Below, one piece after another: positions 653-57,539 of a stretch of DNA of 64,000 nucleotides. Where the stretch lies: contig NC_134839.1 in NCBI RefSeq assembly GCF_965363235.1, forward strand, positions 59,797,560 through 59,861,559, given 5' to 3'. The notes beneath the pieces are model-generated. The model was given only the letters and a program-made list of their open reading frames with translations. It was not told the origin of the DNA and searched no databases. This DNA is from Mytilus galloprovincialis (taxonomy: Eukaryota; Mollusca; Bivalvia; Mytilida; Mytilidae). Position 1 is the stretch's first letter; each line of letters begins with the position of its first letter. Position numbers and translations under genes: made by a program.

Positions 653-1913
653 ATTGTACTGCACCAAATGGAGCCCATGTAGGAAATGGTAAAAATTATG
701 AATCTTATGACGAGTGCATCAGCTGTGATTGTGACAATGGCTACCTGAATTGTTGTCAGTATGTATATCATATTATCACTGTTTTGTAAAGTTAATACTA
801 ATTCATGTCATAATAAATATCCAACAAAAAGCATAATCCATGTTCAATTTTATTATAGGGCTATGTTTTTCTCGTCTATTTCATGATGGTATGATACTAA
901 ATCCCTAACGAGAGGGATTGTACTTGATTTTAATATGATGAAGACAACATATTTCAATCAGTTTAATTCTGAGCTGGCATGTCAGTATAGAAGTGCTTTA
1001 TTAATTTATGTATCATTGTCATTTTGTTTTTTTTTCTCAGTTACCTATTCTGACATCGGACTCGAACTTCTTTTAAACTGAGTTTTATTGTTCGTATTGT
1101 TATGTGTTTCATTATTCTACATTGACTAGAGGTATAGGACATGAATGGCATGAGATCTAAAAAAACATGTTAAACCCTGCTGCATGTTTACTCCTGTCCA
1201 AAGTCAGGAGGTTTTGACCTTTGTTAGTCTTGTATGTTTTTTTTTAAGTTTAGTTCATTTATATGTTTATTTGAGTTTAGTGTGACGTCCATTTTCACTG
1301 AACTAGTACACAATTTTATTAAGGGGCCAACTGAGGACCACCTATTTGTTGCATTGAAGGCTAATTGGTGGCCTTTGACTGTTATCTGCTCTTTGGTCGG
1401 ATTGTTGTCTCTTTGACATATTCTCCATTTCCATTCTCAGTTTTATTACATAGTGTTCATATATTGTCAACACCATTTTTGTCTACCATTTAGTCATTTT
1501 CTCAATAGTCAATGATAAGGCATAATCTTTGGTGTTTTAGCAATATTTGGACAACTATTTAGCTGAAAGTAGTTTCAAGTCAAAGGTAAACCGAGACGTA
1601 TATATATATGTTGTCTGCTCTTTGGTCGGGTTGTTATCTCTTTGATACATTCCCCATTTCCATTCTCAATTTCAATTACTAATTAGTATGTCTGGAAAAA
1701 TGATTTCGGTGAGGAAAAAGTCTGTTATTGAATATATAGATTGAAAAAAATGCATTGTCCCTGGTTTTTATTCTTTCCAGAATGGGAATGACTTTGTCGG
1801 GTCTCCATCCAGACTGCAAGGCTGTAGCAGATGGACCATGCTTTGAGAAGGCTGTACTGAAGAACAATGAAAACAAACCATGCCCGTATCGATATGGAGG
1901 AACGGGTCGTTAA
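653..1913 (+). CDS. Beta-microseminoprotein-like secreted protein, exons 2-3 (copy A, 5' part outside window)
   Basis: Two exons are readable: 653-758 (after acceptor CTGTAG, before donor GTATGT) and 1781-1913 (after TTCTTTCCAG, ending TAA). They join as CA|A to give Q, and reading continues to a C-terminus GGTGR. Cysteines follow the family frame: DC, then EC-x2-C-x-C-x6-CC in exon 2, and DC, GPC, PC in exon 3, matching the arrangement in vertebrate MSMB/PSP94. All eight cysteines expected of these two exons are present and there are no stops, so the copy looks functional. The signal-peptide exon is not in bases 1-652; introns 1 of its relatives are 1-2.8 kb, so it should lie left of the window. 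Intron 2 has taken a dispersed repeat (971-1430). Function in molluscs is not known to me; the family is secreted and disulfide-rich. Confidence 0.8.
971..1430 (+). repeat. Mussel dispersed repeat, family beta
   Basis: Begins GAGCTGGCATGTCAG and ends near GGGTTGTTGTCTCTTTG. The same sequence recurs at 3172-3665 and 5045-5530, with 3' ends at 1610-1675 and 48440-48590 and minus-strand pieces at 21545-21690 and 31045-31195. It lies in intron 2 of copy A. I recognise it as common in mussel sequence but cannot assign a class. Confidence 0.7.
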
Positions 1914-2310
1914 AGTTGAAAAATGAAATTGATATGAAATGATAATGCTCATAGTTTGTTCTGTTTCCAATCATGAAAGATATTATTACCTGAAATTGTT
2001 TATTAATCATGCCAAAGGAGACATGGATAGAATGAATACAGAAAAAAGTTTGCACAATAAGTATTTATAAAAAAAAATCCTCAAAGATTGTAGGCTTATC
2101 ATTTTGTACGCTAGATGTGCATTTCGTCTTTCCAAGACTCATAAAAAGTAAGATAATCTATGTCTGGAGTAGTAAATCGTTAGTATTTCGAACAATGTCA
2201 AGTATTGTACAAAAGAGTAAATTCCTAACAAAAACCTGATACAATCAGAAATAGAGTATATGGAAATTAGATAAAAATCCAATTACAAATCAAATGAAGT
2301 TCACAAATTA
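1914..2310 (+). repeat. 3' flank of copy A, duplicated at 6266-6640
   Basis: Directly follows the stop codon of copy A. A near-identical block follows the dead third exon at 6138-6265, including the stretch that reads GCCAAAGGAGACATGGATAG. It contains a minus-strand copy of the short mussel core repeat (2105-2145, CGCTAGATGTGCATTTCGTC). The close match points to a recent tandem duplication. Confidence 0.8.
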
Positions 2311-2339
2311 GTACATTCATGATATGAACAAGAATTTTT

Positions 2340-2372
2340 TTTTCTATATAGCATTTTTTTTTTTTTTTTTTT
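2340..2372. repeat. T-rich tract
   Basis: Two T runs separated by a few bases, just before the duplicated promoter block that starts near 2440. Likely a slippage or retroposon tail. Confidence 0.6.
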
Positions 2373-2439
2373 TCAAAGATCAGCTGTTTTGCATTTAAGC
2401 CTATGGAGCAGTCAATTACAAGACTGCAACCTATATACT

Positions 2440-2955
2440 AGAACCAAAAAACGAAAAAGAAATTAGACAGACATCATTATGTTATAAAGTTCGTTTATTG
2501 TCTGGCCGATTTTTAATGCCCTACATACAGGCCGAAACCTATGCTAAAATACAAGTACAGGATGCTCCCCTTTTAAACATTTTTTGGCGTTCAGATAATG
2601 TTTTTTACCAATCTAATATTGATCACAGGGCTAACAACAGCTTTATCGTTTAAAATAATAATATCTTTTTTTACTATTAATTTAACAAAAAGGTTTGTAA
2701 CAATAGAAAAAGACAGCATATGCTATATTACAATGCATAAATTACATTTTATTATACCGCATTAGATACATTATGTAACAACCTTTACAGTATTGATAGC
2801 TATCTATGAACATGTGTTGAGGACTTGTGTACGTTGATTTGACTAAAAACATCAATACAAATACTATTAAATGTGTTTGTGACAAACACGTATTTTGTAA
2901 AAGTAGATTTTAAAAAAAGCAATACGTTTTTCGAATGTATAATACTAAGAACTTG
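2440..2955 (+). promoter_or_regulatory. Gene-less copy of the MSMB-cluster upstream region (1)
   Basis: Matches the 540 bases upstream of the intact gene at 16384 (shared landmarks: GACAGACATCATTATG, CAATATTGAT, TATGTAACAACCTTTACA, GAACATGTGTTGA). Homology runs through the TATA area but stops at about 2955, just short of where an ATG would be; a dispersed repeat (2960-3165) follows instead of exon 1. This is therefore a promoter stranded without its gene, either by deletion or by the repeat insertion. Confidence 0.7.
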
Positions 2956-2959
2956 CATC

Positions 2960-3165
2960 TGGACGAAAGATACCAGAGAGACAGTCAAACTCATATATCG
3001 AAAATAAACTGACAACGCCTGGCTAAAAATGAAAGAAGACAAACAGACAAACAATAGTGCACATGACACAACATAGAAAACTAACGAATAGGCAACGCGA
3101 ACCCCACCAAAAACTAGGGGTGATCTCAGGTGCTCTGGAAGGGTAAGCAGATTCTGTTCCACATT
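2960..3165 (-). repeat. Mussel dispersed repeat, family alpha
   Basis: Block running from GACGAAAGATACCAGAGAGACAG to the CAGATTCTGTTCCACA end. Copies in the same direction lie at 4760-5040, 29750-29945 and 43527-43740, and in the opposite direction at 46345-46500 and 33536-33640. At 33.5 kb it abuts a reverse-transcriptase relic, so it may be the tail of that retroelement family. Confidence 0.75.
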
Positions 3166-3171
3166 AATTAA

Positions 3172-3665
3172 CGTCTGGAGCTGGAATGTCAGTTACTGCT
3201 AGTAGTGCTATGTTAATTTATGTATCATTGTCTGTTTGTTCTGTTTCCTGTTTTACCTATTCTTACATCGAACTCGAACTTTTTTAAACTGAGCTTTACT
3301 GTTCTTATTGCTATGTGTTTCTTCATTCTACATTGGCTAGAAGTTTAGCGCATGTAGGGGAGATTTGAAATCTTACAAAACATGTTAAACCCCGCCGCAG
3401 TTTTGTTCCTGTCCTAAGTCAGAAGTCTATGGCCTTTGTAAGTCTTGTATGTTTTTTTTTTTAATTCTAGTTCATTTATATGTTTATTTGAGTTTTATGT
3501 AACGTCCATTCTAACTGAACTAGTACACAAATTTATTTAGGGGCAAGCTGAGGACCACCTATGGGTTCGTAATTTCTCATTGCGTTGAAGACAGATTGTT
3601 GGCCTTCGTTTTATCTGTTCTGTGGTCGGGTTGTTGTCTCTTATTCCCAAACGCCTTCTTTCTAT
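3172..3665 (+). repeat. Mussel dispersed repeat, family beta (second copy)
   Basis: Matches 971-1430 and, still more closely, 5045-5530. Together with the alpha repeat just before it, it belongs to the tandemly duplicated block 2440-4080 / 4155-6060. The remaining bases to 4150 are shared by both duplicates and hold no coding exon. Confidence 0.7.
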
Positions 3666-4154
3666 TTTTTCTTATCTTGACGCTATGTTTCTATTTATAC
3701 GTATATTGGTAGTCAGTGTGAAAATGTTACTAAATTTAAAGATAAGAATACAAGAATGCTAATGCGACAATCTATGAAGTTGAAATAAAAATGATATTTT
3801 CAATAACATGTTAAAATTCTTGCAAAATACAATTAAAAAAAAGAACATTGAGCGTCATTTTCCTGATACATTATTTACATATGTAATATAGAAATTAGGG
3901 ACTTTCACTCAGTGAATACGTACCTGTTATATTATATTAAACTCGGACTTCGTCCTCGGTCAACAAAATCTGAACAGGTCCATCTATAACGTATTGACTT
4001 CGTTAAAAGTCCATAATTGATAAATATTTTTTTTTACCTTTTAGTCATTTGCTCAATAGTCAATGAAAAAGCATAGTCTTTCATGTATAAAAAATGTTTA
4101 GACAACTTTTCAGCTGATTACTAAACAGAAAGCCAAGACCCATGTATATACTAC

Positions 4155-4690
4155 AACCAAAAAACGAAAAACAAATTAGACAGACGTCATAATGTTATAA
4201 AGTTTGTTTATTGTCGGGCAGATTTTTAATGCGTTACATAAAGGTCGTAACTTATGCAAAAAATACAAGTACAGGAAAACTGGCTTCCCTTTTAAACATT
4301 TTCTGGCGTTCAGATATTTTTTTTCACCAATCCAATATTGATCACATGACTCACAACAGCTATCATCGTTAAAAATAAAAATATCTTTTTTTACAATTAG
4401 TTTAACAAAAAGGTTTGTAACAATAGAAAAAGACAGCATATGCTATATTACAATTCATAACGTATGTTTTATTATACCGCATTATATACATTATGTATCA
4501 ACCTTTACAGCGAATAGTTTTAATATTGATAGCTATCTATGAACATGTGTGGAGGGTGTGTATACGTTGGTTTGTCTAAAAATATCAATAGTAATACTAT
4601 TAAATTTGTTTGTGAAAAACACGTATTTTATAAAAGTAGATTAGTTTTTCGAATGTATTAATACTAAGAACATGCATCTGGAGTATCAGT
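4155..4690 (+). promoter_or_regulatory. Gene-less copy of the MSMB-cluster upstream region (2)
   Basis: Second stranded promoter block, closely matching 2440-2955 and the functional upstream region at 15840-16383. It also ends short of any first exon and is followed, after about 70 bases, by an alpha repeat. Confidence 0.7.
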
Positions 4691-4759
4691 CTAAAACATT
4701 TTTGCAATATTGTACACCTTGATTTCCATATGATGACGACAATATTTTTCAATCAGTTT

Positions 4760-5040
4760 AAAAGAGGGACGAAAGATAATAGAGGGACAGTCAAACTTAT
4801 ATAAGAAAATAAACTGACAACGCCATGGCTAAAAGAGGGGCGAAAGATACCAAAGGGACAGTCAAACTCATAAATCTCAAACAAACTGACAACGCCATGG
4901 CTAAAAATGAAAAAGACAAACAAAAAACAGCACACACGACACAACATAGAAAACTAAAGAATAAACAACACGAACCCCACCAAAAAACTAGGGGTGATCT
5001 CAGGTGCTCCGGAAGGGTAAGCAGATCCTGCTCCACATTA
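4760..5040 (-). repeat. Mussel dispersed repeat, family alpha (with internal duplication)
   Basis: Contains the start motif GACGAAAGATA twice (about 4769 and 4840), then the usual body ending CAGATCCTGCTCCACA. Open frames on both strands here are repeat-derived and not genes. Confidence 0.75.
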
Positions 5041-5044
5041 ATTG

Positions 5045-5530
5045 ACTTCTGAAGCTGGCATGTCAGGAAATGCTAGTAGTGCTTTGTTAATGTATGTATC
5101 ATTGCTATTTTTGTTCTGTTTCCTGTTTTACCTATTCTTACATCGAACTCGAACTTGTTTAAATTGAGTTTCATTGTTCTTATTGCTATGTGTTTCTTCA
5201 TTCTACATTGGCTAGAAGTATAGTGCTTGAAGGGGGAGATTTGAGATCTCACAAAACATGTTAAACCCCGCCGCAGTTTTATTCCTGTCCTAAGTCTTCG
5301 GCCTTTGTTAGACTTGTATGATTTTTTTTTATTCTAGTCAATTTTTATGTTTATTACTGTTTACTGTGACGTCCATTTTAACTGCGCTAGTACACAAATT
5401 TATGTAGGGGCAAGCTGAGTTCGACATTTTTCGCTGCGTTGAAGACAGATTGTTGGCCTTAGGCTTTTCTGTTCTTTGGTCGGGTTGTTGTCTCTTTGAC
5501 ATATTCCCAAACGCCTTTTTTCTATTTTCC
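5045..5530 (+). repeat. Mussel dispersed repeat, family beta (third copy)
   Basis: Near copy of 3172-3665. Downstream, 5600-5720 holds two overlapping TGACGTCA palindromes, absent from the sister block; 5720-6130 is the shared duplicated intron-like sequence leading to the dead exon at 6138. Confidence 0.7.
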
Positions 5531-6137
5531 GTATATTGACCTATGTTTCTATTTATACGTATGTTGTAAGTCAATATGAAAATGTTGCTAAATTTAGATT
5601 TATGACGTCATGACGTCACACATAAAACAACTGAGGAAGAAACCGCAACAGAAAAGCCCACCGTGCAAGGGCTGTATGGCCAGTCAAGGTCATTAAAATC
5701 TTTCATTTGTTTGCATCAGAAAAGAAAATTTTACAAATTCATCAGGAGATATCAAGAATTTTATGTTAAATGCAGAAGATAAGAATACAAGAATACTAAT
5801 GCGAAAAGCTATGAAGTTTTAAAAAATGTTATTTTCAATAAAATGTTAAATATTCTTGCAAAATACAATTTAAAAAAAAGAACATTGAACATCATTTTCC
5901 TGATACACTATTTACATATGTAATATAGAAATTAAGGACTTTCGCTCAGTCAATACGTTATATATGGACCTGATATATTCGTCCTCTGTCAATATAATCT
6001 GAACAGGTCCATATATAACGTATTGACTTCGTCAAACGTCCATAAATATTCTTTTTACCTTTTAGTCATTTGCTCAATAGTCAATGACAAAGCATAAAAA
6101 AATGTTTAGATAACTTTTCAGCTGATAGTAGTTTCAA

Positions 6138-6265
6138 GAATGACTTTGTTGGGTCTCCATCCAGACTGTAAGGCTGTTGAAGATGGACCATGATTTGAGA
6201 AGGGTGTACTAAAGAACAATGAAAACAAACCATGCCCATATCGATATGGAGGAACGGGTCGTTAA
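6138..6265 (+). pseudogene. Dead third exon of a copy-A-like MSMB gene
   Basis: Matches exon 3 of copy A (1781-1913) nearly base for base, ending in the same GGAACGGGTCGTTAA. It is broken: the first bases and the acceptor region are deleted relative to copy A, and the conserved GPC cysteine codon is a stop (TGA at 6191-6193). No exon 1 or 2 lies upstream. It is a remnant of the tandem duplication that also copied the 3' flank. Confidence 0.85.
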
Positions 6266-8560: not shown

Positions 8561-8561
8561 T

Positions 8562-13159: not shown

Positions 13160-14085
13160 AGACTAAATGCTTTGAGGTAAACAACTAAAGCTTGGCCTAA
13201 AACAAGAAGCAATAGCCAACACTGTATAATAAGCTACAAAGGTTCTTAAACAATGCCAGTTTACATGTTTTCTATTTACTTTCAGCAAATATTTTCGCAT
13301 ATTAAGATTTATCTTTTCAATCGGTACAGTATTAAAAATCTGGTCAAATATATTTTCACTGTTATATTCATTACATTTTCTGGTGTCAAATATGCCCAAA
13401 ATTTCAGAAGCATACAGTACAACTGGTTTCACAGTATGATCAAATATAAATGTAAAATTTTGAATGTCACAAGGAGTATTTTTAAATATATTAATCAATT
13501 CCATTTGACCTCCAGAATTTAGGTAATTGAGGGCACATTTGAAACTCCCAGTCAAACTAAATACAACACCCAAATATTTATATTGATAAACAGACTCAAT
13601 ACTCTTGTCGTTTATATAAAATTTTCTCGATATCATTTGTCCACTTTTATTAAATATCATCACTTTAGATTTATCATACTTTATTTCAAGCCACCAATTT
13701 TCACAATAGTTATAAACCTTGTTCATACTATTCTGTAACCCTTCAGCTGATTCTGATACAAGAAGTAAATCATCTGCATACAATAAACTATTAAGGAACT
13801 GTGATCCAAATGATACAGGACAACATGAAGCATCAACTAACTTAGTAATGTCATTAATAAATACATTAAAAAGACTTGGACTAAGATTGTCCCCTTGACA
13901 CACAAACACTAGATGAAAAAAACCTCTGACAGTGAAGAATTATCTAATTTAACTCTAAGCTCTATATTGCTATACATGGATTTCAGTAAGGATAAAAACC
14001 TTCCACCTACCCCTGCTTTTATTAATTTGAATAAGAGTGCAGGGTGCAGAACAATATCAAATGCCTTTCTAAGATATTATATATG
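13160..14085 (-). mobile_element. LINE (non-LTR retrotransposon) reverse-transcriptase fragment
   Basis: On the minus strand 13909-13163 codes about 248 residues with reverse-transcriptase landmarks: QGDNLSPSLFNVFIND, the catalytic box LLYADDLLLVSE, then EIKYDKSKVMIFNKSG and YKYLGVVFS. Upstream at 13910-14085 the same protein continues with AFDIVLHPALLFKLIKAGVG, the first catalytic-aspartate region, after a frame break near 13910. The endonuclease and 5' part are missing, so the copy is 5'-truncated and dead. The order AFD, GDNLSP, YADD is typical of Jockey/CR1-type LINEs, but I cannot fix the clade. Confidence 0.85.
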
Positions 14086-16383: not shown

Positions 16384-18705
16384 ATGGTGCACATTCAACT
16401 CTGTGTGTTTTTCCTGATCGTAGGGCTGTGCTCTACTGTTGATGGGTTCTGTTTTCTGCAGAAAACAACAGGTAAACTTTAATTATTCATTTACCGAGTG
16501 TTCATTTTCCATTTTTCTTTTCCGTTTACCTGTTAAAACTGTTAAAACTTGTAATTGTTGTACAACTCATATGTCACATGAATACTAAGGGCATTAATTT
16601 AATTTAAATTTAATTAATTTCGCCAATTAAATATATACCTCTCTACAAGCACGATTATTCTTTAAAAGAAGCAACGTGTATTTCACCAAACTTTCTTACG
16701 GACGCAGCTAATCTCATTCATCATAACAGTTTCAGTATACCGGATTTAATATGATAACGGTCAATTCATCAATTTTATATAAATATTATAAAAGTGTTCT
16801 TCGTGTAGATAAATAAGAGTCCTGCATTTGTTTTCTTTAATAATTATTTTGAAAATAAGATTCTAACTTAACTTATCACAATCACGATGCCACTTTCTTA
16901 TTGCAGAATAAATGATTCAAATTATTTTTTTTTTAATTGCATTTTTTATTTTCAATGTATCGGTATATGTCGGTTCAGTATACGATTTCAAATGATTCCT
17001 CGAGTATTATTATATGGTTAAAATTCATAACGGGTAGTAGAGTAATTGAGTTGAACGTCACAGCAATTGATCAGAAATGATAGTCACATTACTATATATT
17101 ATGATTTGAACATCAACATATATCCAAGAATTACCTTCCAAGGTTAAAGTGCAGTTGATATTGGAAATTATTGGCAATCGTACGGCCTTCTAAAATGAGA
17201 AAAAAAAACATACAGTATTATCAGCTATAACAGACACCAACAAACTACAATCACTGAACTACAGGCTCCGAATTGGTACGGTAGTTAATTAATTTAAAGA
17301 ATTTTCAGTGCAACGTTTTTTCAATATTTATAGCTATTGCTATAATTTCTATCTTGAAAATAATTTAGGATTATTTGTTAGACGATTTTTCAATTAAACA
17401 TGGGGAATGGTGATATACAGTGTTGAAAAATATTAAGATTTGTTTAAAATGACTTCAGAGAAATATTGAGTTTAAAAAACGAGGCAAAAGATTTGGACCA
17501 ACTTTCTGAAATTTGGGTTTTACATGCATTTCAACTTCGTTATTTGAGTTAGGCTTTAATATTACTTTGAGATGAATACTTTGTTTATAATGATTGTAAC
17601 AGTAATTTGATCAGTCGGGTTTTTTTCTTTTCTTTAGACTGTGTCTACAAAGGAAGAATAATAAAACATAAAACCGATTATGAATCTATCAAAGAATGCA
17701 TCAAATGTAGCTGTTCGAAAGGATCACTACAATGCTGCTCGTAAGTTTTTTTTTTTCTATGTATCATATTGGTTTCATTTTGACTATAATCAATGATACT
17801 TTGTATATGCGCTTTTCTGATGTACTTATTTGATCTAATTTTGTAATGTCGATTGATTTCCGCGTATATGATTTCGGAGTATTTTCAAAAATATCAAACC
17901 TTAAAAATGACTGACTTAAAACATTCATTTTCATTTTCGATTAACATCTTTTTAAGAGCTATATTGTGGGATAAATGAAATGTGGTATTCAATGTAATTC
18001 TTTGGATACCAATTTTTATGGGTTTCATGGGTACAGGTGAACCACGAATTTTAATAATATATTTTCAATATGATATTTTTGTCACACTGGTTTCATTCAT
18101 GCTACTGTATTTTACTACTGTGTAACACTAGAATAGTTTATTTCTCATAAACCATGTGTAACCATATATTACAGAGAAGTTAAACGCATGCATACAAAAT
18201 ATAAATGAATACATAAATAAATATAGTAAAATAAATAAATAAAAAAATACAAGAATACAAAACAAGTAAATATAACTGTTTAAAGAAATAGTTTAAGTGT
18301 TCAAATATGTTGAAATTATGGTATTCTTCTGTTATATATACTTTCTGTTGTACTTGTATTTTTCAACAATTTGTTTTTGAGCATTTAAGATCCCGGTATT
18401 TTTTGAAATATCAAACTTAAGGATTTAATATACATTTGTTTTTTTTTTATTCATTATATATTTCCAGCTCAATTCCACCCATGTATCATTTCATCACTAA
18501 TACAATCACTATATGCACGATATACTTAACCATCAAATTATTTTCACATGTAAAACACTAGACATTCTGTTTCAGGATTGGCGGATACATCACAATTCAT
18601 TCTGATGATTGTAAAATTGTATCTGACGGACCTTGTAAACAAAAGGCTGTCCTTACTGCTGATGAAACAAAGCCTTGTCCACAATTCTCCATGGTTGGAC
18701 GTTAA
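16384..18705 (+). CDS. Beta-microseminoprotein-like secreted protein (copy B, intact)
   Basis: Exons 16384-16471, 17638-17740 and 18576-18705; introns of 1166 and 835 bases with GTAAAC/TTTAG and GTAAGT/TTCAG borders, phases 1 and 2. They code 106 residues. Residues 1-21 form a signal peptide (MVHIQLCVFFLIVGLCSTVD-G), leaving a mature protein starting FCF. It has ten cysteines, C23, 31, 50, 53, 55, 62, 63, 76, 84 and 98, with C-x2-C-x-C-x6-CC at the core. That is the framework of vertebrate MSMB/PSP94 (from memory C-ETC-TC-x6-CC), so family membership rests on cysteine pattern, length and secretion. The protein ends MVGR; the terminal Gly-Arg is conserved in most copies and could be an amidation signal. 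Role in mussels is unknown to me. Its closest partner is gene D, in inverted orientation. Confidence 0.88.
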
Positions 18706-20746: not shown

Positions 20747-20879
20747 TATCGGTATGCGCATCTCTAGCACACCTGCTGGTTGTAAAGTGGTACCAGATGG
20801 ACATCGTTCTAAAAAGGCTGTCCTTGTTATTGACGAGACACAGCCCTGTCCAGGAGGATTTTTTATGACTGGGCGTTGA
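20747..20879 (+). pseudogene. Orphan MSMB-like third exon (copy C)
   Basis: After a good acceptor (TTTGTTTCAG) the frame reads as exon 3 of the family: IGMRISSTPAGCKVVPDG, then KKAVLVIDETQPCPGG and a C-terminus MTGR with stop at 20877-20879. It is 133 bases, like exon 3 of gene E, its nearest relative. The conserved GPC is GHR here, so a disulfide cysteine is lost. I find no exon 1 or 2 in the 2 kb upstream. It is a decayed copy, or at best a spare 3' exon. Confidence 0.8.
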
Positions 20880-25399: not shown

Positions 25400-28300
25400 T
25401 TAACGTCCAACACCGGAGACTTGTGGACAAGGCTGTGATTCATCACTAATAAGGACAGCCTTTTGCGAACAAGGTCCATCAGCTACCACTTTACAATCAT
25501 CAGAATGACTACTGATGTATCCACCAATGCTGAAACAGAAAGTCAAGTTATATACATGTGAATGGAATTTGGTGGTTGAGGATGAAAAAGGAAGATAGAT
25601 GGAGAAAACAGAGGTATTTGTTTATCTTTATTTAATGTGAATACTACACTTATCTTGACATATGACTGTAAAAAAAACATTATTTAATTTTATCCCAAAT
25701 TGAACACATATATATTAAATCCGTTAAGTTTGATATTTCCAAAAATATCTTGAATTTGAATACTCGCGAACAAATTGTCAAAAAAACAAGTACACCAGAA
25801 AAAGAACAGATAATTCTAGTTTAGTGAAATAGAGTAGCATAAATGAAACCAGTGTGACGAAAATAAAAACGACTTACAAGCAGCAACTCAAGGATCCTTT
25901 CCTACAATCACAGTTGACACACTCTTCAAAAGATTTATACCGTGTTCCGTCTTTTATTATTTGTTCTTTGTAAACACAATCTAACGAAAACAAATGATTG
26001 GATGGTTAAATGACAGACAAAGTATTTATGTGATCTTAACTGACAATGTATTATTTATTTCTTTAAATGGATTCACTACAGATTTATTGAAATACATAAA
26101 AACTCCCCTATGACTCTATGATTTTAACTGTATACGCTAGACTCGCGTTTCGTCTACATGAGACTCGACCTTTTAGCTCAAATTTTAACGGTTGGAAGGC
26201 AATAACAAAGTAAAGTTCATCGAAAAACAAAAAAATCACAAAAGTGTGCCAAATCTTTGCCTCGATGTGAAAATCTTTAAGTTTTTAAAATTTTACATGT
26301 TATCAATAAAATGTACAGAAAATTACATATCAATGTTTCAGCCATAAACAACAGCAGTTTTGCTAAAGTTAATGCATGTGGTTCGACCAAACAATTTATA
26401 AATTATGTTTGTTCAATGATTTAGAAAACCTAATATTGTGAAAATGATCATTATTTCGATAATCTTTTTTTCTGATTAAATTTACTACTTTCACTTTTTA
26501 AAAACAGACAAAACTATCAATCGTTTAATTAATCAGAATAATAAATGTAATTCATCGAATGTTTCAGTAATAGAGGTACTTGAAAACGAAGAAATTAGTA
26601 TGTTTAGTAGAAATGAAAGATGCTTAGATTACCATTGAAAAAAGATAAACAAAAATTGAGATCATCTGTGTAGCCGACATTTATCCATAGATATACAACA
26701 GATATAATATGAAAAAAACAATGGCATAATAAGGATTTTTAGAAATACTTTGATCTAAGATCTAAAGGAGTTACTCAAGGTCCTCCTTGCTTTTTTTATA
26801 GCTTTAAATCGCGTGTCACTATTGAGTTTTTGTGAAGACGTCAGACGTACAAAATGATATTCAATTATTTTTGTATACGCATATGTCAAACAAAGCATTC
26901 AGAAACGTATGACATTGACACTTTTTTCTATAAATGTTATGAAATGGTTGATAATAATCAAACGATAACAAATGATAATGGTTATTTATTGCTAAATTAT
27001 CAAAGACCTAGCAAATGTCTACAAGTATGACACTTAACGATAACTCTCCACCTCATCCTACCTTTGCAGTTACCAAATAATAAATATATTGAGGGACAAG
27101 CCCTATTATATAGTGTTTCGTATCACATTAATATTTGTTAAATCAACTTTTGAATATCATCTGATTGGACGCCGAGAGGTATAGTGAATGTGTTTATGGA
27201 CAGGAACTAATTATGTAACTCAGGGTGGTTGTTCGAACTCCGGTCGCGACAAATAAAAGTTTACAAAAGTTTAAAGTAACTTTTTAAACTAATTCCGAAA
27301 TCGGTAAACGTGCCTATTCAAATTTAATATAAATTATTCATATAAAAGTGCTCCATTGAATATATTCGAGATCATGCCATTTTAATATTTGACCGTACGT
27401 GTTACTATATCAAATAATCAGAGGATGACCGTTTTGACATCGGAAAATGTCGATTTTTAAAAGTTTTAATTCTGATTACAAAGTGTAATTTAAAGAACAA
27501 ATATGCAACTTATAGTTTTCACAATCTCTTAAACTAATTTCAATGCTCTTCACTGTCGTTCTTCTTTTGGCCTTTTTAACATTTTCTGATTCGAGCATTT
27601 CTGATGAGTCTGTTGAAGACGAAACGCGCGTCTGGCGCAAAAATAAAATTTCAATTCTGGTATCTATGATGAGTTTATTTTCGTGATCTTAATACTTATT
27701 GTTTCTGCATCATTAAGAAAAAGTTTTAAAATGTAGATACGAATTTAATTGCAATTTTTGACAGGGAAGATCGTTACTCGTCGATCGTTAATTTTATGTA
27801 GTTGATTAATATAATTATGTTAGATATCACAGTAAAAATACGTTGTTAAATTGATAATTTTTAAGAATAAGTTTTCTCAAAGAATAAATGAGATTAGATG
27901 CGTCCTATTCAAATAAACAACAACAACACCATAAACATTAGTGATATTTCTTTTTTAATAAGAATTCTACAGCTAAAGCTATAAACTTCCTATTCACATA
28001 TTTGCATCTATGAAAGCATTAAGTAAAACTTAACATCTATTTGTGTTTGTAAAACACCTGCCTCAAGGTAGTTCAGGGGTATAGAAAAAAAAATTACACG
28101 CCAAAATATTGATTTTATAAACTTTTTTGAATAAAATAATAAAAAGTATGGGTCACCACGCTATTTTCCAAGGTACGAGTTGTTCAAAATTTACAAAGTT
28201 CGCTTAGATTGCTCATGAAAAAACACATTTTGTGCATAAAAAGAAATCTATCAGACAGAATTTGAAATAAAATTTGAGAAGATAGGTTTTATAAAACATT

Positions 28301-28907
28301 TTAAGAAAATAAAAATAAAAATGATGTCACCGATTGTGTTTTCTTGCTATAAGTAAAACATGAAAATTCCCTGCAAGTCCAGTATTAATTTTCTACTTAA
28401 ATAGTTATCTCCCCTTGGACTGCTTCTTTGAAAAAAAAAATTCTAAAAGCACAAATATTTGGTATTTGTGAAACCTTTTCGATAAAGAAATGGATAACTA
28501 AGTTTTCTTAAATAAACAGTGTAACCAATAAATTGCATATCTGTCTCCAAATTTGCAGATTTTTAGTTGCAGCGTTGCAATAAAAGTGTGGCAAACGATT
28601 AATTCTTATAAAAGGTCTAAATTCATTGATGAAAATGATTTTTAACTGGTAAAAATTCATGCCCCAATTATTCATACAGCACCGCATTCAGTTGAAACTG
28701 TTTTTAAAGGTAAGACGGAGTTGGAAAGTACAAGATAAATTTTCGGTAAGCGTTGTTATCATGATGACTATCATCATTTACATTTAAAATTTATATATAA
28801 AAAAAAAGATTAAATTTACCTGTAGGTGGCTGCGCAAAACAGTACCCATCAACAGTTGAAGACAGTCCTACGATCAGAAAAAACACACAGAGTTGAATGT
28901 GTACCAT
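25400..28907 (-). CDS. Beta-microseminoprotein-like secreted protein (copy D, intact)
   Basis: Minus-strand exons 28907-28820, 25980-25878 and 25529-25400; introns of 2839 and 348 bases with GT..AG ends and the same phases (1, 2) as gene B. They code 106 residues: signal peptide MVHIQLCVFFLIVGLSSTVD-G, mature start YCF, then DCVYKEQIIKDG, the ECVNCDCRKGSLSCC core, and SHSDDCKVVADGPC leading to QPCPQVSGVGR. All ten family cysteines are kept. Exon 2 joins exon 3 as TT|C, giving Phe after CC where others have Ser. Intron 1 has grown by repeat insertion, with a short core repeat at 27590-27670. The gene is the inverted partner of B and, with its upstream flank, a tandem relative of F and G. Confidence 0.88.
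27590..27680 (+). repeat. Short mussel core repeat (GACGAAACGCGCGTCTGGCG)
   Basis: Contains the palindromic core ACGCGCGT within GACGAAACGCGCGTCTGGCG, followed by a TCTGGTATCTATGATGAGTT tail. Other copies: 41425-41510 (+), 46110-46185 (-), and diverged ones near 2105, 26130, 49280, 52665, 56060, 56655 and 57310. Probably a SINE or other small element; class not assignable from here. Confidence 0.65.
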
Positions 28908-34372: not shown

Positions 34373-36020
34373 TTAACGTAGAACCCCGGCGGATCCTGGA
34401 CAAGGCTGTGTTTCATCAGCAATAAGGACAGCCTTTTCCGAACAAGGTCCATCAGGTACCACTTTACAATTAGCATCATGTTTAACGATGTATCCGCGAT
34501 TACTGAAAAAGAAATTTAAGTTTTATACATATAAATGGAATTTTATGCTTAAGTATGTATACGTAGTTAATTAGATAGTTAAGGTATTAGACAGGGAGGG
34601 AATTGAGATTGTATTTTTTTTTTTTAATGTCTCAAGCCTTGGTCACACCTTACCGGATAGCGCGAACGGACGCCTAACGGATAACTTTTTTTTCAATCCG
34701 TTCATGTCCGTTAGACGTCCGTTCTTATCCGTTAGGCGTCCGTCCATATCCGTTGCATGTCCGTTAAGCGTACGTCTTATCGTCGACGTCCGTTCTGTCC
34801 GGTGGAAAATGTTGAGCATGTTCAAAACTTTGAACGGACGTTCAACGGATAAAATGTCCGTTGAACGTCCGTCACGCGCCGTTTTGTACGGTACCCGTCC
34901 GTTTCGTTTCCGTTTTGTATACGTTACGTGTCCGTTATACATCCGTTGGAGGTCTGGAAGATAAATTCACCAACGAACTTCTACCGGACGTTTAACGGAT
35001 AAAACGGATGTTGAACGGATGAGAAACGGACTTCTACCGGACGTATAACTGATAAAACGGATGATGAACGGATCTAAAACGGATAAATGCCAATTGAAAA
35101 TTTTGCGTCAGAAATGCCAATTATTGGTATGTCAGATTTCTTAAGGTTCATGAATTCTTATTATTCAAAATCGATCTTAGAGTATAGGCACGTCTTAACA
35201 ATCAAGCATTTCATATTCAGGGCAGACACTGTCCTTTGGCGGAATTTTGAAGAACAAACCAAAACCAGAACCACAGAAACATTTTGAATATTTATGCGAT
35301 TTACATGTTTTATTATTGTCGTCTTTGATTTTTCCGTATATCTTGTTCATCCGTTTTATCCGGTACGCTTCCGTTAGGTGTCCGTTTTATGCGGTACTCG
35401 TCCGTTGGATGTACGTTCGACATCCGTTCTGTCTGGTACGTGTCCGTTTCTCGTACGTTGCATATCCGGTGTGTGTCAGTTATGCATCCGTTACACGTCC
35501 GTTTTATTCGGTCAGTACATCAACGGACTCCCAACGGATAACAGTTTTGTCAACGGACAACTTTTATTTTCATCCGTTAGGCGTCTGTTCGTGCTATCCG
35601 GTAAGGTGTGAGCGAGGCTTAACGGATAAAAACTGACGATCAATGGTAGTTGTTTATATTAACTAAATGTGAATACTACAATTATCTTCACATAGTACTG
35701 TAAAAAGGTATCACTCAATTGTATCCGAAATTTAGCACATAAATATTTAAATCTGTTAAGTTTTGATATTTTTTAAATACCGCGAAATCAAATACTCGTG
35801 AAACAATAAGCAAAACCAATTTCCAAATAACAAAATACACCAAAAAAAGTAAATTATAGAATAGTGTATATAATAGTCGAAATGAAACCAGTATGAAATA
35901 AAGAAAAAACGACTTACGAGCAGCAACTTATTAATCCATCCCTACACTCACAGTAGGTACACTCTTCGGAGGATTTATACGTGTTTCCATTTTTTATTAT
36001 TTGTCCTCTGTGAACACAAT
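34373..36020 (-). CDS. Beta-microseminoprotein-like gene, exons 2-3 only (copy F)
   Basis: Minus-strand exons 36020-35918 (DCVHRGQIIKNG, EECTYCECRDGLISCC) and 34502-34373 (NRGYIVKHDANCKVVPDGPC to QPCPGSAGVLR, stop at 34375-34373). Acceptors and the internal donor GTAAGTC are intact, phase 2 is kept, and all eight cysteines of these exons are present. I could not find a signal-peptide exon in the 7 kb upstream, where a 3.3-kb mobile element and other repeats have inserted. Without it the copy is probably not secreted, so it is a likely recent pseudogene. The C-terminus reads LR where others read GR. Intron 2 carries a foldback element (34634-35620). Confidence 0.75.
34634..35620. mobile_element. 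Foldback DNA element with AACGGA/TCCGTT-repeat arms
   Basis: Terminal inverted repeats of about 45 bases: left AAGCCTTGGTCACACCTTAC, right end read inward AAGCCTCGCTCACACCTTAC, both followed by CGGATAGC. The arms (to about 35085 and from about 35340) hold some 25-30 degenerate copies of TCCGTT or its complement in the left arm alone. The centre (35090-35330) has no transposase. Open frames across the arms are by-products of the repeats. It sits in intron 2 of MSMB copy F. I see no clear target duplication. Confidence 0.8.
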
Positions 36021-36119
36021 CTAAAGAAAAAAATGAATGATCAAAATACAGCCAAATATTCATCTAATGTAATCAATGATATATAATTTCTTTCATATTA
36101 TAATGAAGCCACTAAAAAG

Positions 36120-47865: not shown

Positions 47866-47869
47866 AGTT

Positions 47870-48110: not shown

Positions 48111-48439
48111 ACCAATAGAAGTAAATGGCTTTTTATTCAAGAAACTAAACGTAGGAGTAATACAGGCCTTGATAATATTTCAATATTTTGTTCAATACAT
48201 ATGTGATTTCATCAAAGTCTTTTTAAGTAGAACCCCGGAGGATTCTGGACAAAGCTGTGTTTCATCAGCAATAAGGACAGTCTTTAGCGAACACGGTCCA
48301 TCGGGCACCACTTTACAATCTTTGGAATGGTTAGTGATGTATCCGCTAATACTGAAACAGAAAGTAAAATTATATATATGCGAAAGCAATTAGAGGGTTA
48401 ACTATATAAAAGTCACTATTGTATAACTAGTGTATATTT

Positions 48440-48590: not shown

Positions 48591-49734
48591 GGTTGTGATA
48601 TTGAATGTATTTGACGGGGCTAAAATTGAGATGGTAAAACTGGTTAAGAAATATCTAACGGATAAATACGGACGATAGACGGAGGGAAACAGAGGTATAT
48701 ATAGCTGTGGTATGACTGTTAGTGAGACAATTCTTCACAAGAGACCAATTTATTTACATGGATAATTTGTGTATCTGTTTTAAATATCAATACTTCAGTT
48801 ATATTGCAAATCAATGTTATTTCAATTTGAACATTTATATATTTTTAAGACTGTTAAGTTTTGAATCTCTTTCGAAAATACTGCAAAATTATATACTGAC
48901 GAATTAATAGGCAATATCAAATTCCAGAAAAAAAAAAAGGGCACCAGAAAACGTCCACGTCTAGTAAATCATAATATATTATGTATGGTAGTCGAAGTAA
49001 AAATAGTATGATGTTAATGAAGACGACTTACCAGCAGCAACTCAGGTATCCATTTGTACACTAACATTCAGTACTTTCTTTGGGAGATATAGATCTTTTT
49101 TCATGTTTTATTATTCGTCCATTGTAAATACAATCTGGGGGAAAAACAAACGATGGGATGATCAAATTACAGACGCAGTTTATATCTAATCTGATAACTA
49201 ACAATGTATCAAATCTTTTATAAATGAAGTCAATGAGACGTTATTAGAATGTATAAAAATTCACCAAAGACATCGGGATTATTACATAGTACGCTAAACG
49301 CACGTTTCATCTCCATAAGATAACCATTTGGAAGGCGTCGTTAAATAACGCAAGTACCCATCATTTAATGTGATACAGTAGTTTTAGCTCTGTTAAAAAA
49401 TGCGGTAGAGGATATATGATATATTTCTTTTTTAAAAGGCTCCCTCATAAAGGTATCAATTCATTCATTGAAACTAGTTTTAACTGGTGAAATTCATATC
49501 CCAGTCATTCAAATAATATGAGTTATAATGCAAATACAAGTTTGAATTGTTTAACAGTTTTAAATCTCGGTCTATTTCAGAAATTAATTCTAACAAACTT
49601 TAGATTTTGTAACCCTGTATGCCAATATTCCCCATGTTAAATTATAAAATTGTTTTGTGTAAACATTGCGTGAACGACAGAATTGCTTCCTATGTGACGT
49701 ATACATTTTCTGACGTCAGACACGCGAAGCAATA

Positions 49735-50110: not shown

Positions 50111-50254
50111 TTTAACATTACCTGTTGGTTGCTGAAGAAAACAGTACCCATCAACAGTAGAACACATCTTTACGATCAGGAAAAACACACAGAGTTGGAT
50201 GTTCACCATGTTGACAAATTTTTGAATGGGTAAGCCAGATGTATGTAAGTTTTT

Positions 50255-50932: not shown

Positions 50933-51085
50933 AATAAAGGCAACAGTAGTATACCGCTGTTCGAAATTCATAAATCGTTTGAGGGTAAAAAATCCGGGGT
51001 TACAAACTAAAACTGAGGGAAACACATCAAATAAAAGAGAAAAACCACGACACAACATAAACACACCACTAAAATGTAACACACA

Positions 51086-51370: not shown

Positions 51371-51379
51371 CCACTATAA

Positions 51380-52460: not shown

Positions 52461-52957
52461 CAGTAGTCAGTACTTTACTTCTGAATTGACATTAGATATT
52501 ATCGATCGGTCAATTGTATATATTTTTTGTTAACAAAATCATGAATTACTAATGATTTTCTATCCTTTGTCTGTATTTGGCAAAACAATTAATGTTTTGG
52601 TTTGTCAATGCTCTAAAACTTTGAAGTTGATTTGACCTTTACACTTTTCTGATTCGAGTGTCAATGACGAGTCCTGTTAAAATGTGACGTGCGTCTGGTA
52701 CAAAATTGTAAGCTTGGTTTCTGTGAAGTGTTCTGTTATTCGATTTTGATTCTCCCAATTATAATCCTTATCGATGAACTAATAAGGGTTACATTAAAAC
52801 ATTTAATAATCTTTTCAGGAAATAACAAGCCTCTTGCATAATGGTATGATTATCAAACGCAAACAAATTTACACTATTTTTCAATATCAACACATTCATC
52901 ACAGTGTATGAATAAGCGCAGATACAAAACTTTATTTTGAACATGATCAGCCTGTTA

Positions 52958-53255
52958 GGCCAAGTTTGGATGGAACTCGAGTACTGTCTCTAGTTCCATA
53001 TAAACGGTAAATAATTTTGAAGAGTAAGGACTCTAGATTACCGGAAATACAAGGCCCCTACTCTGAATATGTTTACATTCAAATTTGATTGGATCGACGT
53101 CATAACATCCGGGATATCGAGTCGATCTCTAGTAACCCTGCTACATCCCAGGGCTCATTGAGTTCTAATGGTGGGAAAGCTATATCCAATCATAACAGGT
53201 GTTATATATGACCATGTCAATCCTATCTACTCTAGATATCCATCCGAACTTGGCC
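52958..53255. mobile_element. PIF/Harbinger-like MITE
   Basis: 298 bases with inverted ends GGCCAAGTTTGGATGGA and (read inward from the right) GGCCAAGTTCGGATGGA, flanked by the 3-base direct repeat TTA on both sides (52955-52957, 53256-53258). A 3-base TWA duplication with GG-starting ends is the habit of PIF/Harbinger. No coding capacity. Confidence 0.75.
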
Positions 53256-53417
53256 TTATATACTCTAATAATTTAATTTTGGATGTAACGCGTCTTCTGA
53301 TTGGATGACATTATTTTGTTATGAGCCCATAGACATAATTTAGTCATGTGACCGTGACGTCATCAACATTTTTTCATGGTTTTCTACGGTTTAAAATGAA
53401 ATTTAGAATTAAATTAT

Positions 53418-53507
53418 AAGAAATGACATAAAAAATGTGGTGCACACTGCTAAATAACCCGCTACGCGCGTTATTCAGTATGCACCAAATTTTTTATGTT
53501 ATTTCTT
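53418..53507. mobile_element. Palindromic hairpin element
   Basis: Arms AAGAAATGACATAAAAAATG and, complementing, CATTTTTTATGTTATTTCTT-type sequence enclose TGGTGCA words and a central GCTACGCGCG. About 40-base arms pair with few mismatches. Confidence 0.65.
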
Positions 53508-54527
53508 CATAGAGAAAAAATATTACAGTCATTCCTTAAATATCGATTACTGTACTATACGGGAGATTTTTCAACAACTGAATATAAAGTATGGCTTGAT
53601 TTCTATGCAATGCTGCGAACAACCTATACGGAACTCTAATCCCGAAACAATTATACGTTGTTAGACAGATTGCTGATTTTATATTTTATTCAATAATTTA
53701 GTAAGAGGAACCAAACTTCGTAAGAATTCCATCCGTGTCAACGGTAAAGTCTGTATAGATTGCCTATTATAGGTAAATTGAATGTCCCACTGGTATCGTT
53801 TGTCCCTCTTTCACTACATATTAGGAAAAATGCATATTACAAATGATTGATCAAAAGATCTGGAAAACAACATAAGAGATAAACACCTTTATTTTCAGTT
53901 TTAGTTAACCATTTACCATATCTCTTACTTATATTTAAAAAATAAAAATTGTATTTAAATGCAATATCTTAAAAAAAAAAAAAGTTTTCATAGAAGTTGG
54001 CCTTTCTCATCGCTTGTGCAAAAACAAACAAATGCATGTAAAAAATTTAACCAGGTGTATCAGTGTAAAAATGGACAAGTTTCATATTTATTGTACATTT
54101 AAGAATTTAATATTATTTGTCGCGTTAACTTTAGTAGATATAGTTTGATAAGGAGATGATATATGTCTGTCAATTAGACAACCATCTACAAGACGTAAAC
54201 AATTATGGAGGACTTTTCGGGTTTTAAATATGAGCAAACCCCGTAACTTAGTAAACTACACCAATGTCTCGCAATGTTGTCTCATTTGCAATCATACCAA
54301 ATCTTCTTATTTTATATATACATAAAGGCCCCGGTTTGACAAAATGTGAATCATTTCAAAAAGAAAAACCAATAGCCTCATGTATACTGTAACCAATAGT
54401 TGGCATTATATAATGCACAATGCAAATGAAAACAGAAAAAAAACCAGAAAAACTAACAACACAGTTTATTAAACAAATAATATACTGAATATGTTTTTCT
54501 GACTCGAAGATTATCAATTACATAGTG

Positions 54528-54640
54528 TGCTAGTAACCTAATACGGTATATATGGGGTCAATAAATTCCATATGGGGTGAGAGCGAAGCTGGAATCCCCA
54601 TATGGTATTTACTGACCCCATATATACCGCATTATGTCAC
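54528..54640. mobile_element. Palindromic hairpin element
   Basis: Arms TAATACGGTATATATGGGGT and ACCCCATATATACCGCATTA-type sequence, then CCATATGGGG/CCCCATATGG, around a short loop GAGAGCGAAGC. About 45-base arms. 53510-54528 holds no gene; a gamma repeat piece is at 54150-54300. Confidence 0.7.
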
Positions 54641-54903
54641 TAACATGTGAAAGCATGTTTCACAGTTCAATTCAGAATTACAAAACTACATTTCAGTAAG
54701 CTAAATAAGATATAAATTATGTAACAACTTTTGCTATAAACAGCTTATTTAATAATCAAAAAACGATCTACGAACATAATTCCAGGAAGTATGCACATGG
54801 ATTTCTTTACAAACATTAATACAAATACTGCTCAATTTGATGCTGACTATTTTATAATTGTCGACTAAGGACTTCTTAAGCCATTGCTTTTCCGGTTTAT
54901 AAA

Positions 54904-54911
54904 TATAAATA
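54904..54911 (+). promoter_or_regulatory. TATA box of MSMB-like gene E
   Basis: TATAAATA followed by CTTAGC, 46 bases before the ATG exactly as in gene B; an overlapping second TATAAATA starts at 54898. Confidence 0.7.
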
Positions 54912-54956
54912 CTTAGCTGCATATAAATAGTTAGGTTATTCAAATTTTTCAGCAGC

Positions 54957-57539
54957 ATGATGCACAGTTTGCTATTAGTGTTTTGTCTTATCGTAGGGCT
55001 GTCATCAACTGTAGATGGATTCTGTTTTCAGCAGGGACCAACAGGTAAATTTGGATAATTTATATATGAAGTCGTAATGATAGTGACCATCACGATCATA
55101 ACACAATCTGTTTATTTATATTTTAGTATCCATTTTTCGTTTTACTTTTAAAATAGTTTAAACTAGTAGTTGTAATATTACTCACTATCAAATCAATACT
55201 TGACATGCATTTAACCAGTTAACAATTTTTTCTTTCAATAAATTACGACCTCTCTATGCGAGCGCATCGTCCTTTTTAAAAAAGAAACATATCAAATGTC
55301 ACACTTTTATTGGAATTTTGCATTTAATGTCTTACATCACACTATGGAGCAACTAGTGGATCTGCTTACCATTCCAGAACAGCTGATACTAGGACCAGAT
55401 TTTTCGTGGTGTTAGTGTTATTCAGTGTTTTGTTTCGACGATCTGTTTTAATGCATAATTTGTGTATAACTGGTATATTATTATTTCTGGGATTTCGTTA
55501 TCACAAATCGAATAAGACGTTTCTAAATTCTTCAATAGATACAAATATTTGGTTAGGATGTTCGGCTTCAGCTGATGAATTCAAATTAAAAACATGACTT
55601 TTATGGTAATGTTATTAATTTGAATAGTATGAATTTGAAGTCCTTTATTCTTTGAACTAATTTATTCTTAAAAGTTATCAATTAAACACCTAGTTTTCCT
55701 TTAAATATTGTTTTTATTGGTATAAACATTGACTATAACTAAATATATATTGTTATTCATTTACAGTATGAATGCATATGATCTTACCTACTGCCGATAT
55801 GTTTATTTATATATTTGCATTAAATACAATCATGCGTTTCTCAGAGTGTTTTTGTTTTGTGTCAGATGGATGATCATTGGTTGTTACTTTAGTCCGAGCT
55901 ATCAAGAATTATCTGATAGTAGTAATAAACATGATCTTTCTTTCAGTAACTGCAAATATTCTTAAATCTAAAATTCAACAATTCATAGTTTGGATGTTGA
56001 GATTGAAAACAGTGAAAGGTATTGATTAAATGAGACAAATGAATTACAAAATATTTAATATTCTTATCACTGAAGAGACATGTATTGTCGAAATGCGTAT
56101 CTGGTGCAAGAAAATTGGTACCGTTAATTTTATTTTTCATAATACAAAATTGAGGAATATGGTTTATACATGGTCAATTGGTCGATTTCTTTGCACTAGC
56201 TTTATGATAGCGCTATTTAATTGTGATGACATGCATTGTAAACATGTGGTTTATATATAGAATAACCTTACATTGTCTCGAAATAATCATTTAATCAGTA
56301 CAAGGCTCCGAGCATGTAGTAATCGAGGATTTGCCGAGCATTTCTACCCAATTTTGAGCTGAGAACAAATAAATTTTATATTTTTGTTTTATTGACGTCA
56401 TAAATAAAAGTCTACGGAAAAGCATTTTTCAACGTCATAAACAAGGCGATATACGGTCACAAATGAATATATACAGTCAATGCGATTTGCCTGCATATCA
56501 CAAATGAATATACGGTCAATGCGATTTTTGAACACAAAACACCATTGCGGTATATAAAATGTTAAAAATATCGAATACGTTTTTACATCGAAGGATAAGA
56601 TTTAGCACAACTTTCTGGACTTTTGTTTTTTGTTTTCGAGGAACTTCAACAAGTTAATTGTTATGAAAACGAAACACGAGTCTGACGTATAATGTTATAA
56701 ATCTGGTATCTTAGGTGAGTGTTTATATATCCCAATTAAGTCTTAGCAAATACTAAAAAACAGAACTGAGATCTTATCAATTGTCAGATAGATAAATAAT
56801 TAACTTAAAATGATTGCTACAGTTATTTTACCACTTAATCCTCCGTTGTCTTTAGATTGTGTCTACAAAGGGAGAGTAATAACAAATGGAACAGATTACG
56901 TATCTACCGACGACTGTATTAAATGCAGATGTTCGAAAGGAGTCATGAATTGCTGCTCGTAAGTAGTTTTTCTATTGGTCATATTGGTGTCATTGCAGCT
57001 ACCATATATCATAATTTACTAGTACTAAATATTCACTTTTTCTGTTGTACTTATTTTCTCTAATTCGGTTCTATTAATTGGTTCTCGAGTTTTCAATTGT
57101 GCGGTATTTTTCAACAAAATCAAAACTTAAATAAAATATTTATGATAAACATAAGAATATGTGGTATGATTGACAATGTCTACCAGAGTTCAAATGAAGT
57201 GGCAGTAAGCAATTATAGGCAACAATATTCATTTACGAATGAAATCAAATCATTATCCTTTTACTTTGTCCACAATGGTCTTAAACTTCGTACTTTATTT
57301 GTCTCTTTTACTCGAGTGTCGCTAATGAATCTTTTGTAAACAAAACGAGTGTCTGGTATTTATAATACGCTTATTCATGTGCATAAAAAATTCATTTCTG
57401 TTTCAGTATCGGCATACGTATCACTAGCAAACCGGATGATTGTAAAGTGGTACCTGATGGACCTTGTTCTCAAAAGGCTGTCCTTATTGCTGATGAAACA
57501 AAACCTTGTCCAGGAGGAATAGGTGCGGTTGGGCGTTAA
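54957..57539 (+). CDS. Beta-microseminoprotein-like secreted protein (copy E, intact)
   Basis: Exons 54957-55044, 56856-56958 and 57407-57539; introns of 1811 and 448 bases, GTAAAT/TTTAG and GTAAGT/TTCAG, phases 1 and 2. They code 107 residues: signal peptide MMHSLLLVFCLIVGLSSTVD-G, mature start FCF, then DCVYKGRVITNGTDY, DDCIKCRCSKGVMNCC, PDDCKVVPDGPC and the end KPCPGGIGAVGR. All ten family cysteines are present. N40-G-T is a possible N-glycosylation site not seen in B or D. The start could be either of two adjacent ATGs; the first gives the same exon length as B and D. It is followed after 1.5 kb by a convergent TRIM-like gene. Orphan exon C is its closest relative. Confidence 0.88.

Follow-up and report, generated by a model that had tools for sequence, protein, structure and literature searches.

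A tandem gene cluster of MSMB/PSP94 type in Mytilus galloprovincialis with a candidate C-terminal amidation signal

A stretch of 64,000 nucleotides from the mussel Mytilus galloprovincialis (assembly GCF_965363235.1, contig NC_134839.1, positions 59,797,560–59,861,559 of the forward strand; hereafter the window) carries a cluster of small genes for cysteine-rich secreted proteins, which a sequence-only reading had assigned to the beta-microseminoprotein (MSMB/PSP94) type. The locus raises the question of what family these proteins belong to, how they are finished and what purpose they may serve. The analysis given here leans towards the view that the cluster is one tandem part of an MSMB-type secreted family that would be finished by C-terminal amidation and would be used for communication.

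Gene copies in the window and in the genome

Three genes in the window are intact, as had been claimed, and each has an open reading frame of 106–107 amino acids. Gene A is on the forward strand (positions 16384–18705 of the window) with exons at 16384–16471, 17638–17740 and 18576–18705. Gene B is on the reverse strand (25400–28907) with exons 1 to 3 at 28820–28907, 25878–25980 and 25400–25529, and gene C is on the forward strand (54957–57539) with exons at 54957–55044, 56856–56958 and 57407–57539. The exon lengths are 88/103/130 bases in A and B and 88/103/133 bases in C, all with GT-AG borders, and the shared exon plan with phases 1 and 2 that had been described holds in all three genes. Exon 1 encodes the signal peptide and the first cysteine and ends in phase 1. 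Exon 2 encodes cysteines 2–7 and, together with exon 1, makes up the N-domain, and exon 3 encodes the C-domain with cysteines 8–10; intron 2 is placed after the CC doublet plus part of one residue. The ten cysteines match the order C-x7-C-x18-C-x2-C-x-C-x6-CC-x12-C-x7-C-x13-C, given in the sequence-only reading, exactly in A, B and C. The amino acid sequence identity to protein A is 72% for B and 68% for C, and the three proteins end in MVGR, GVGR and AVGR, respectively, directly before the stop. A TATA-like stretch, TATAAATAC, followed by a short block similar among the three genes, is found at a similar distance 5' of the three start codons, just upstream of positions 16384, 28907 (reverse strand) and 54957.

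Mapping of exons and tblastn searches reproduce the earlier count for the window of at least eight copies, whether genes or exons. Three are intact, copy F may be intact and four are partial or decayed; the presence of decayed copies had also been noted before. Copy D, on the reverse strand, retains exon 1 (50122–50209), but its exon 2 (49034–49135) has a TAG codon and has lost cysteines, and its exon 3 (48231–48350) reads through the usual stop and lacks the Gly-Arg end. Partial copy E, also on the reverse strand, consists of exon 2 (35917–36021) and exon 3 (34376–34495), the latter ending VLR-stop with loss of the glycine; its exon 1 was looked for and not found. Copy F is on the forward strand and has intact exons 2 (652–759) and 3 (1782–1910, or 1782–1913 with the stop, ending GTGR-stop); a search of 834 bases upstream gave no exon 1, which would fall outside the window. 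Two decayed copies on the forward strand are represented by exon 3: F' (6164–6262), with an internal TGA, and G (20748–20876), with one cysteine replaced, ending MTGR-stop. Coordinates of exons 2 and 3 of D and E, exon 2 of F and exon 3 of F' are borders of the matches. The signal peptide ends in TVDG, as had been reported, in all four copies with an exon 1 (A–D). With A, B and C as tblastn queries, the E values for exon 3 are 1.9e-16 (D), 2.2e-15 (E), 1.2e-9 (F), 3.7e-8 (F') and 2.9e-15 (G), and that for exon 2 of copy D is 6.5e-8. Judged from these values, the similarity among the window copies is beyond chance.

The expansion is larger than the window alone reveals. A search of the genome (1.385 Gb, 331 contigs) gives at least 24 further exon-3 copies, for a total of at least 32 in eight neighbourhoods on five chromosomes (one each on C1, C6 and C11, two on C2 and three on C4). 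These counts are lower bounds, with at least 26 places found by one exon-3 query and at least six more by a second. A weak exon-3 match at C2:57.91 Mb (E 5.16) was left out, as were 11 of the 25 exon-2 matches (C10, C2:100.9 and C1:122.3), which were taken as VWC-type or unrelated, one C10 stretch having been read through. Seven full-length models were made, comprising the three intact window genes and a single gene from each of C1, C6, C4 and C2:58.1 Mb. For the C2:58.11 Mb model there are three possible ends of exon 1, and the third was chosen; a copy at C4:96.55 Mb has no splice acceptor where one is expected and was excluded. Exon lengths outside the window vary (79–103, 103–115 and 127–139 bases). 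The bivalve origin that had been proposed for the DNA agrees with a repeat on C4, matched at up to 100%, of the decapeptide type of Mytilus foot protein 1; such a repeat marks Mytilus and points to a bivalve of blue-mussel type.

A tree of 17 copies shows single groups for C11 (100/99), C6 (98/93) and C4 (89/90), and places copy F with the C2:58.1 Mb copies (100/99), so that the window holds two subfamilies. The tree is based on 78 columns only and carries a long-branch warning. For the C11 gene L011, about 2.6 kb of sequence preceding exon 2 gave no exon 1, and none in stretch L062 is convincing. Five C11 exon-3 copies (L013, L018, L021, L023 and L025) have no exon 2 within 1.5 kb upstream, and for L013 none is present in L062 either. 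The C11 array thus seems to hold partial copies also.

The C-terminal tail

The glycine followed by a basic residue at the end of A, B and C recurs through the family. Gly-[Arg/Lys]1-2-stop is found at the end of 22 of the 32 exon-3 copies and one more copy ends with a bare Gly-stop, so that 23 of 32 have an end of the amidation type. Seventeen of the 22 were pattern-matched among 30 rows, and five (L001, L006, L009, L017 and L072) were read by eye. Some are otherwise broken, e.g., L017 and L072 have internal stops. Gly-basic ends are present in seven of the eight neighbourhoods, and the eighth, C4:90.8 Mb, has the bare glycine. As a background, 21 of 2947 open frames of at least 15 codons in the window end in this way, a frame set that includes the family's own exons. 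The tails past the last cysteine vary (VGR, TGR, IGR, VGK, MGRK, NGRK and bare G), and what is kept is the glycine plus 0–2 terminal basic residues. Among the 17 of these 22 copies that were tabulated, the glycine codons GGA, GGC, GGG and GGT are all used, together with several Arg and Lys codons. As the codons vary among the Gly-basic ends, this points to selection on the residues themselves rather than to mere recent copying.

A glycine with basic residues at the extreme end of a secreted protein is the classical substrate of a carboxypeptidase and then of peptidylglycine alpha-amidating monooxygenase (PAM). The proteins would enter the secretory pathway and form five disulfides as in vertebrate MSMB; a carboxypeptidase would then remove the C-terminal Arg or Lys, and PAM would turn the exposed glycine into a C-terminal amide. 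The predicted product of A, B and C would end in Val-NH2. At about 9 kDa, it would act outside the cell as a stable ligand whose end is processed in the manner of peptide hormones. With cleavage after TVDG and five disulfides assumed, the computed monoisotopic masses of the amide are 9188.34 (A), 9022.01 (B) and 8862.12 (C). For A the Val free acid would have 9189.33, and a form that keeps Gly-Arg would be 214.11 heavier than the amide. At C2:2.49 Mb, three consecutive exons for a copper type II monooxygenase domain are consistent with a PAM gene, although this domain occurs in other enzymes too. From these sequence properties it is likely that the mussel family is C-terminally amidated.

Nine copies are without the signal. 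Three of them are decayed (L003, L014 and L025, the last being unmatched and entered as without the motif). Copy E (L004), L074 and L076 end in VLR, LLF and VGM, respectively, and three related C11 copies (L019, L021 and L023) end in VER-stop, where Glu has replaced the last Gly. These six weigh against amidation, as the glycine is not universal. L019 has intact exons 2 and 3 and represents a natural variant without the amidation signal.

One alternative accounts for the tail in another manner. The proteins could bind and inhibit CAP/CRISP or other secreted proteins, with the Gly-basic end serving for binding and not for amidation. Snake SSP-2, which binds such proteins, is one of the six MSMB chains matched below. 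PSP94 is described to inhibit sterol binding by CRISP2 (PMC8857485). This alternative is unlikely, as tails that vary and keep only the glycine and 0–2 basic end residues resemble a processing pattern and not an interface.

Amidation may also be present elsewhere in the MSMB family. Chicken MSMB3 ends in NGVG and its major form lacks the glycine; how this residue is removed is not known, according to the authors (PMC8167871). We recomputed the masses from the published sequence; the recomputed averages are 0.07–0.14 Da below the printed theoretical values. In the data of that paper, the high-resolution mass difference between the two forms is 58.01, where an amide gives 58.005 and an acid 57.021. 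The dimer is 0.20–0.43 Da above the value for the amide and 1.54–1.77 Da below that for the acid, and the main peak by matrix-assisted laser desorption/ionization (MALDI) is 0.32 above amide and 0.67 below acid. Two published values weigh on the other side. The printed monoisotopic mass of the form without Gly, 9852.70, is that of the acid. The intact mass in print exceeds theory by 0.99, and a one-isotope error in both printed masses would reconcile the former with an amide. At 9913.26, the MALDI peak that the authors call intact falls more than 3 Da short of theory, and MALDI values therefore cannot decide an argument over 1 Da. The authors saw a change of −1 Da on two lysines and proposed lysine oxidation for the shift of the dimer, and their peptide search had amidation (−1) among the variable modifications (PMC8167871). 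The chicken masses are thus partly consistent with amidation. As a reading of published numbers they are suggestive but mixed and are no proof. The broader proposal, that alpha-amidation is old and recurrent in the microseminoprotein family, that the chicken masses contain an unrecognised amide and that the loss of glycine is PAM activity, is tentative and stands slightly short of an even chance. On that view the microseminoproteins would be disulfide-held ligands of hormone type, finished by PAM.

Family identity

The assignment to the MSMB/PSP94 type is supported by the profile built from the seven paralogues. In the PDB, six MSMB chains lead its list of seven with E values from 1.5e-4 to 0.010: human MSMB twice (1.5e-4 and 1.8e-4), two chains that we take to be pig (0.0055 and 0.0063), snake SSP-2 (0.0079) and chicken (0.010). 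The seventh entry is the VWC domain of NOV at 0.23. The cysteines of the intact genes follow the MSMB ten-cysteine pattern, yet two C-domain loops are each one residue shorter (x12 and x7 in place of x13 and x8). Shuffling only the C-domains of the vertebrate MSMBs reduces their scores, and the shuffled sequences that reach the real score number 5 (human), 12 (pig), 29 (chicken) and 48 (snake) per 1000. When the cysteines are held fixed these values rise to 14, 63, 98 and 132, which tells against the assignment; the support from the C-domain is thus real but modest and comes mostly through cysteine spacing.

The C6 copies provide a further hint. Both have another residue at Cys7, and the single copy with an identified exon 1 has one at Cys1 as well. 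The counterpart of this pair in chicken MSMB3 is the disulfide C2-C43 (PMC8167871), and the joint loss would be an independent indication of MSMB from one of the five disulfides. On the other side, it is a single event and another cysteine is near, at the predicted end of the signal peptide.

Several other results weigh against membership in MSMB. A profile of three sequences gives E values of 0.16 to 9.6 in the PDB, with two potassium channels interleaved, and is not significant. No single protein reaches the curated Pfam PSP94 (PF05825) cut-off of 22 bits; gene A has 12.1 bits, and a wrongly spliced model of A, longer by two residues, has 17.8 bits. Exon 3 alone brings up no MSMB chain in the profile search, and with exon 2 alone a mucin match (1.8e-4) ranks above human MSMB (3.7e-3), exon 2 resembling VWC-type domains about as well as MSMB. 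AlphaFold2 on a two-row alignment gives a predicted local distance difference test score of 38.1 and a predicted template modelling score of 0.20, i.e., no usable model to compare with the MSMB fold, which has a Greek-key N-domain and two-stranded sheets in the C-domain. The PSP94 profile has 0 matches in the whole genome, but control profiles likewise have 0 and the search is uninformative.

These results bear on the alternative that the family is not MSMB at all but a VWC half-domain joined to an unrelated cysteine-rich tail, with the MSMB-like spacing arising by convergence. Profile searches favouring VWC had been named beforehand as a result that would refute the assignment. The whole-profile search places six MSMB chains above any VWC chain, whereas single-sequence Pfam scans match VWC (PF00093) in five of seven members and PSP94 in two of seven (best E 0.052). 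The VWC matches cover the first part of the domain only, at 13–18 bits, in the rows with a bit score, against a cut-off of 27.6 (best E 6.5e-4); all bit scores given, for PSP94 as for VWC, fall short of the curated cut-offs. With hhalign the mussel VWC half-domain has a probability of 94.9 (exon 2 only) compared with 34.2 for chicken MSMB3, and exon 2 is nearer to VWC repeats of the same genome (E 4.5e-8) than the whole family sequence is to chicken MSMB3 (4.2e-4). Exon 3 alone, again, finds nothing related. An array of VWC-type domains is present at C10:79.62–79.66 Mb (L053 and L054, the domains having been read in L053), and its first halves resemble exon 2 of the family; it is a possible source of the N-domain. 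The likeness stops at the first half of the VWC domain (C-x2-C-x-C). The second half, CCxxC, is absent from A, B and C, unlike the C10 repeats, and no full VWC domain is present. In its place the CC doublet is followed by x12-C-x7-C-x13-C, parallel to x13-C-x8-C-x13-C of MSMB, and the lost Cys1-Cys7 pair fits a disulfide of MSMB. Convergence is thus a very improbable account, and the family very probably belongs to MSMB/PSP94.

Duplication, possible function and known systems

Between A and B, the flanks of 300 bases can be aligned at 83% identity over 257 bases and 87% over 269 bases. Other introns and flanks give best local alignments of 73–79%, a comparison made with no shuffled control. 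As flanks and introns align, this points to an origin of the copies by duplication at the DNA level. The ratio of nonsynonymous to synonymous changes (dN/dS, Nei-Gojobori) among A–C is 0.50–0.56 in the mature part and 0.05–0.16 in the signal peptide, the latter calculated from 15–16 synonymous sites only. By this measure A–C are constrained, the mature part more loosely than the signal peptide, and there is no sign of positive selection among them. Some C4 and C11 pairs have dN near dS or slightly above, with few changes. The description of the family as fast-evolving is therefore right only in part: the mature sequences are loosely held, but positive selection is unseen in A–C.

Two other features are present in the window. 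Adjoining gene C on the reverse strand (59057–60655) is an intact frame of 532 amino acids whose product has a zinc finger of the B-box type and an NHL repeat. The remnant of a retroelement, a fragment of reverse transcriptase (RVT_1, E 8.9e-16), is placed between gene copies at 13163–13939 on the reverse strand.

The function proposed is communication between animals or tissues. An amidated ligand of this type would serve as a gamete- or egg-associated cue or as a neuroendocrine or paracrine signal, and duplication would yield a set of diversified ligands. A precedent is the beta-microseminoprotein of squid egg capsules, described as a contact pheromone that triggers male aggression (PMC4500399, PMC10036341). 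A microseminoprotein is expressed at a low level in the snail nervous system (PMC10036341), and the secreted factors that are raised in starfish testes include beta-microseminoprotein (PMC9759900). For bivalves, the legend of a figure on gill transcripts of metal-exposed mussels names MSMB (PMC3552849). The computed net charge of the mature proteins is +4 for A, −2 for B and +2 for C. The competing explanation is host defence, in which the secreted products would act on bacteria or fungi or modulate immunity, and their amidation would be only stabilising. In a Vibrio experiment, the transcripts that changed in haemocytes of clam include one for a beta-microseminoprotein (PMC4234419), and tandem copies with decayed members are, as general knowledge, common in defence families. 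The same clam transcript is listed at −3.03 (PMC4234419), the charges are not uniformly positive, and the dN/dS values show no positive selection in A–C. On this evidence communication is favoured over defence; we regard communication as having about an even chance and a role in defence as doubtful.

A conserved amidation signal in so distant a branch, taken together with the partly matching chicken masses, would place the family nearer to peptide ligands that are secreted. It would tie MSMB to a defined enzyme, PAM, with a simple mass test, and recombinant MSMBs made without the amide could miss activity. The many natural mussel variants would be useful in finding a receptor or partner.

Parts of this system are already in print. 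MSMB-like genes are reported in bivalves, Mytilus included, and in gastropods and cephalopods (PMC3268785); the accessible text of that report describes no genomic expansion, decay or C-terminal signal for them. The literature searches, within the accessible text of their sources, gave neither an amidated MSMB product nor an MSMB expansion in mussel, though the predicted amide-donor glycines marked in Figure 5 of a paper on the snail Reishia (PMC10036341) may include that of its microseminoprotein. Neither the extent and arrangement of the mussel family nor its C-terminal amidation signal is described in that text.

A KLHL neighbour is reported for Aplysia and vertebrate family members but was looked for and not found at the mussel loci: among the at least 111 BACK-domain matches of the genome, none of those listed is within 5 Mb of any family locus. 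KLHL synteny is not a defining feature of MSMB/PSP94. The mussel proteins share with vertebrate MSMB/PSP94 a signal peptide, ten cysteines in the same order and a weak yet top-ranked similarity. The last exon encodes the C-domain in both, exon 4 in lizard and zebrafish members and exon 3 in mussel, there being four coding exons in the described vertebrate genes and three in those of mussel (PMC3268785). The tails differ. Human MSMB ends in W-I-I with no amidation signal (PMC8167871), and chicken MSMB3 is glycine-ended like the mussel proteins but has the bare residue in place of Gly-basic; its product is not called amidated in the accessible text of PMC8167871. The closest parallel in gene arrangement is the sea cucumber Apostichopus japonicus, where a tandem array of PSP94-like genes, 11 on one scaffold and named by cysteine topology, has been linked to gut regeneration (PMC5638244), whereas the mussel family is split over its separate neighbourhoods and chromosomes.

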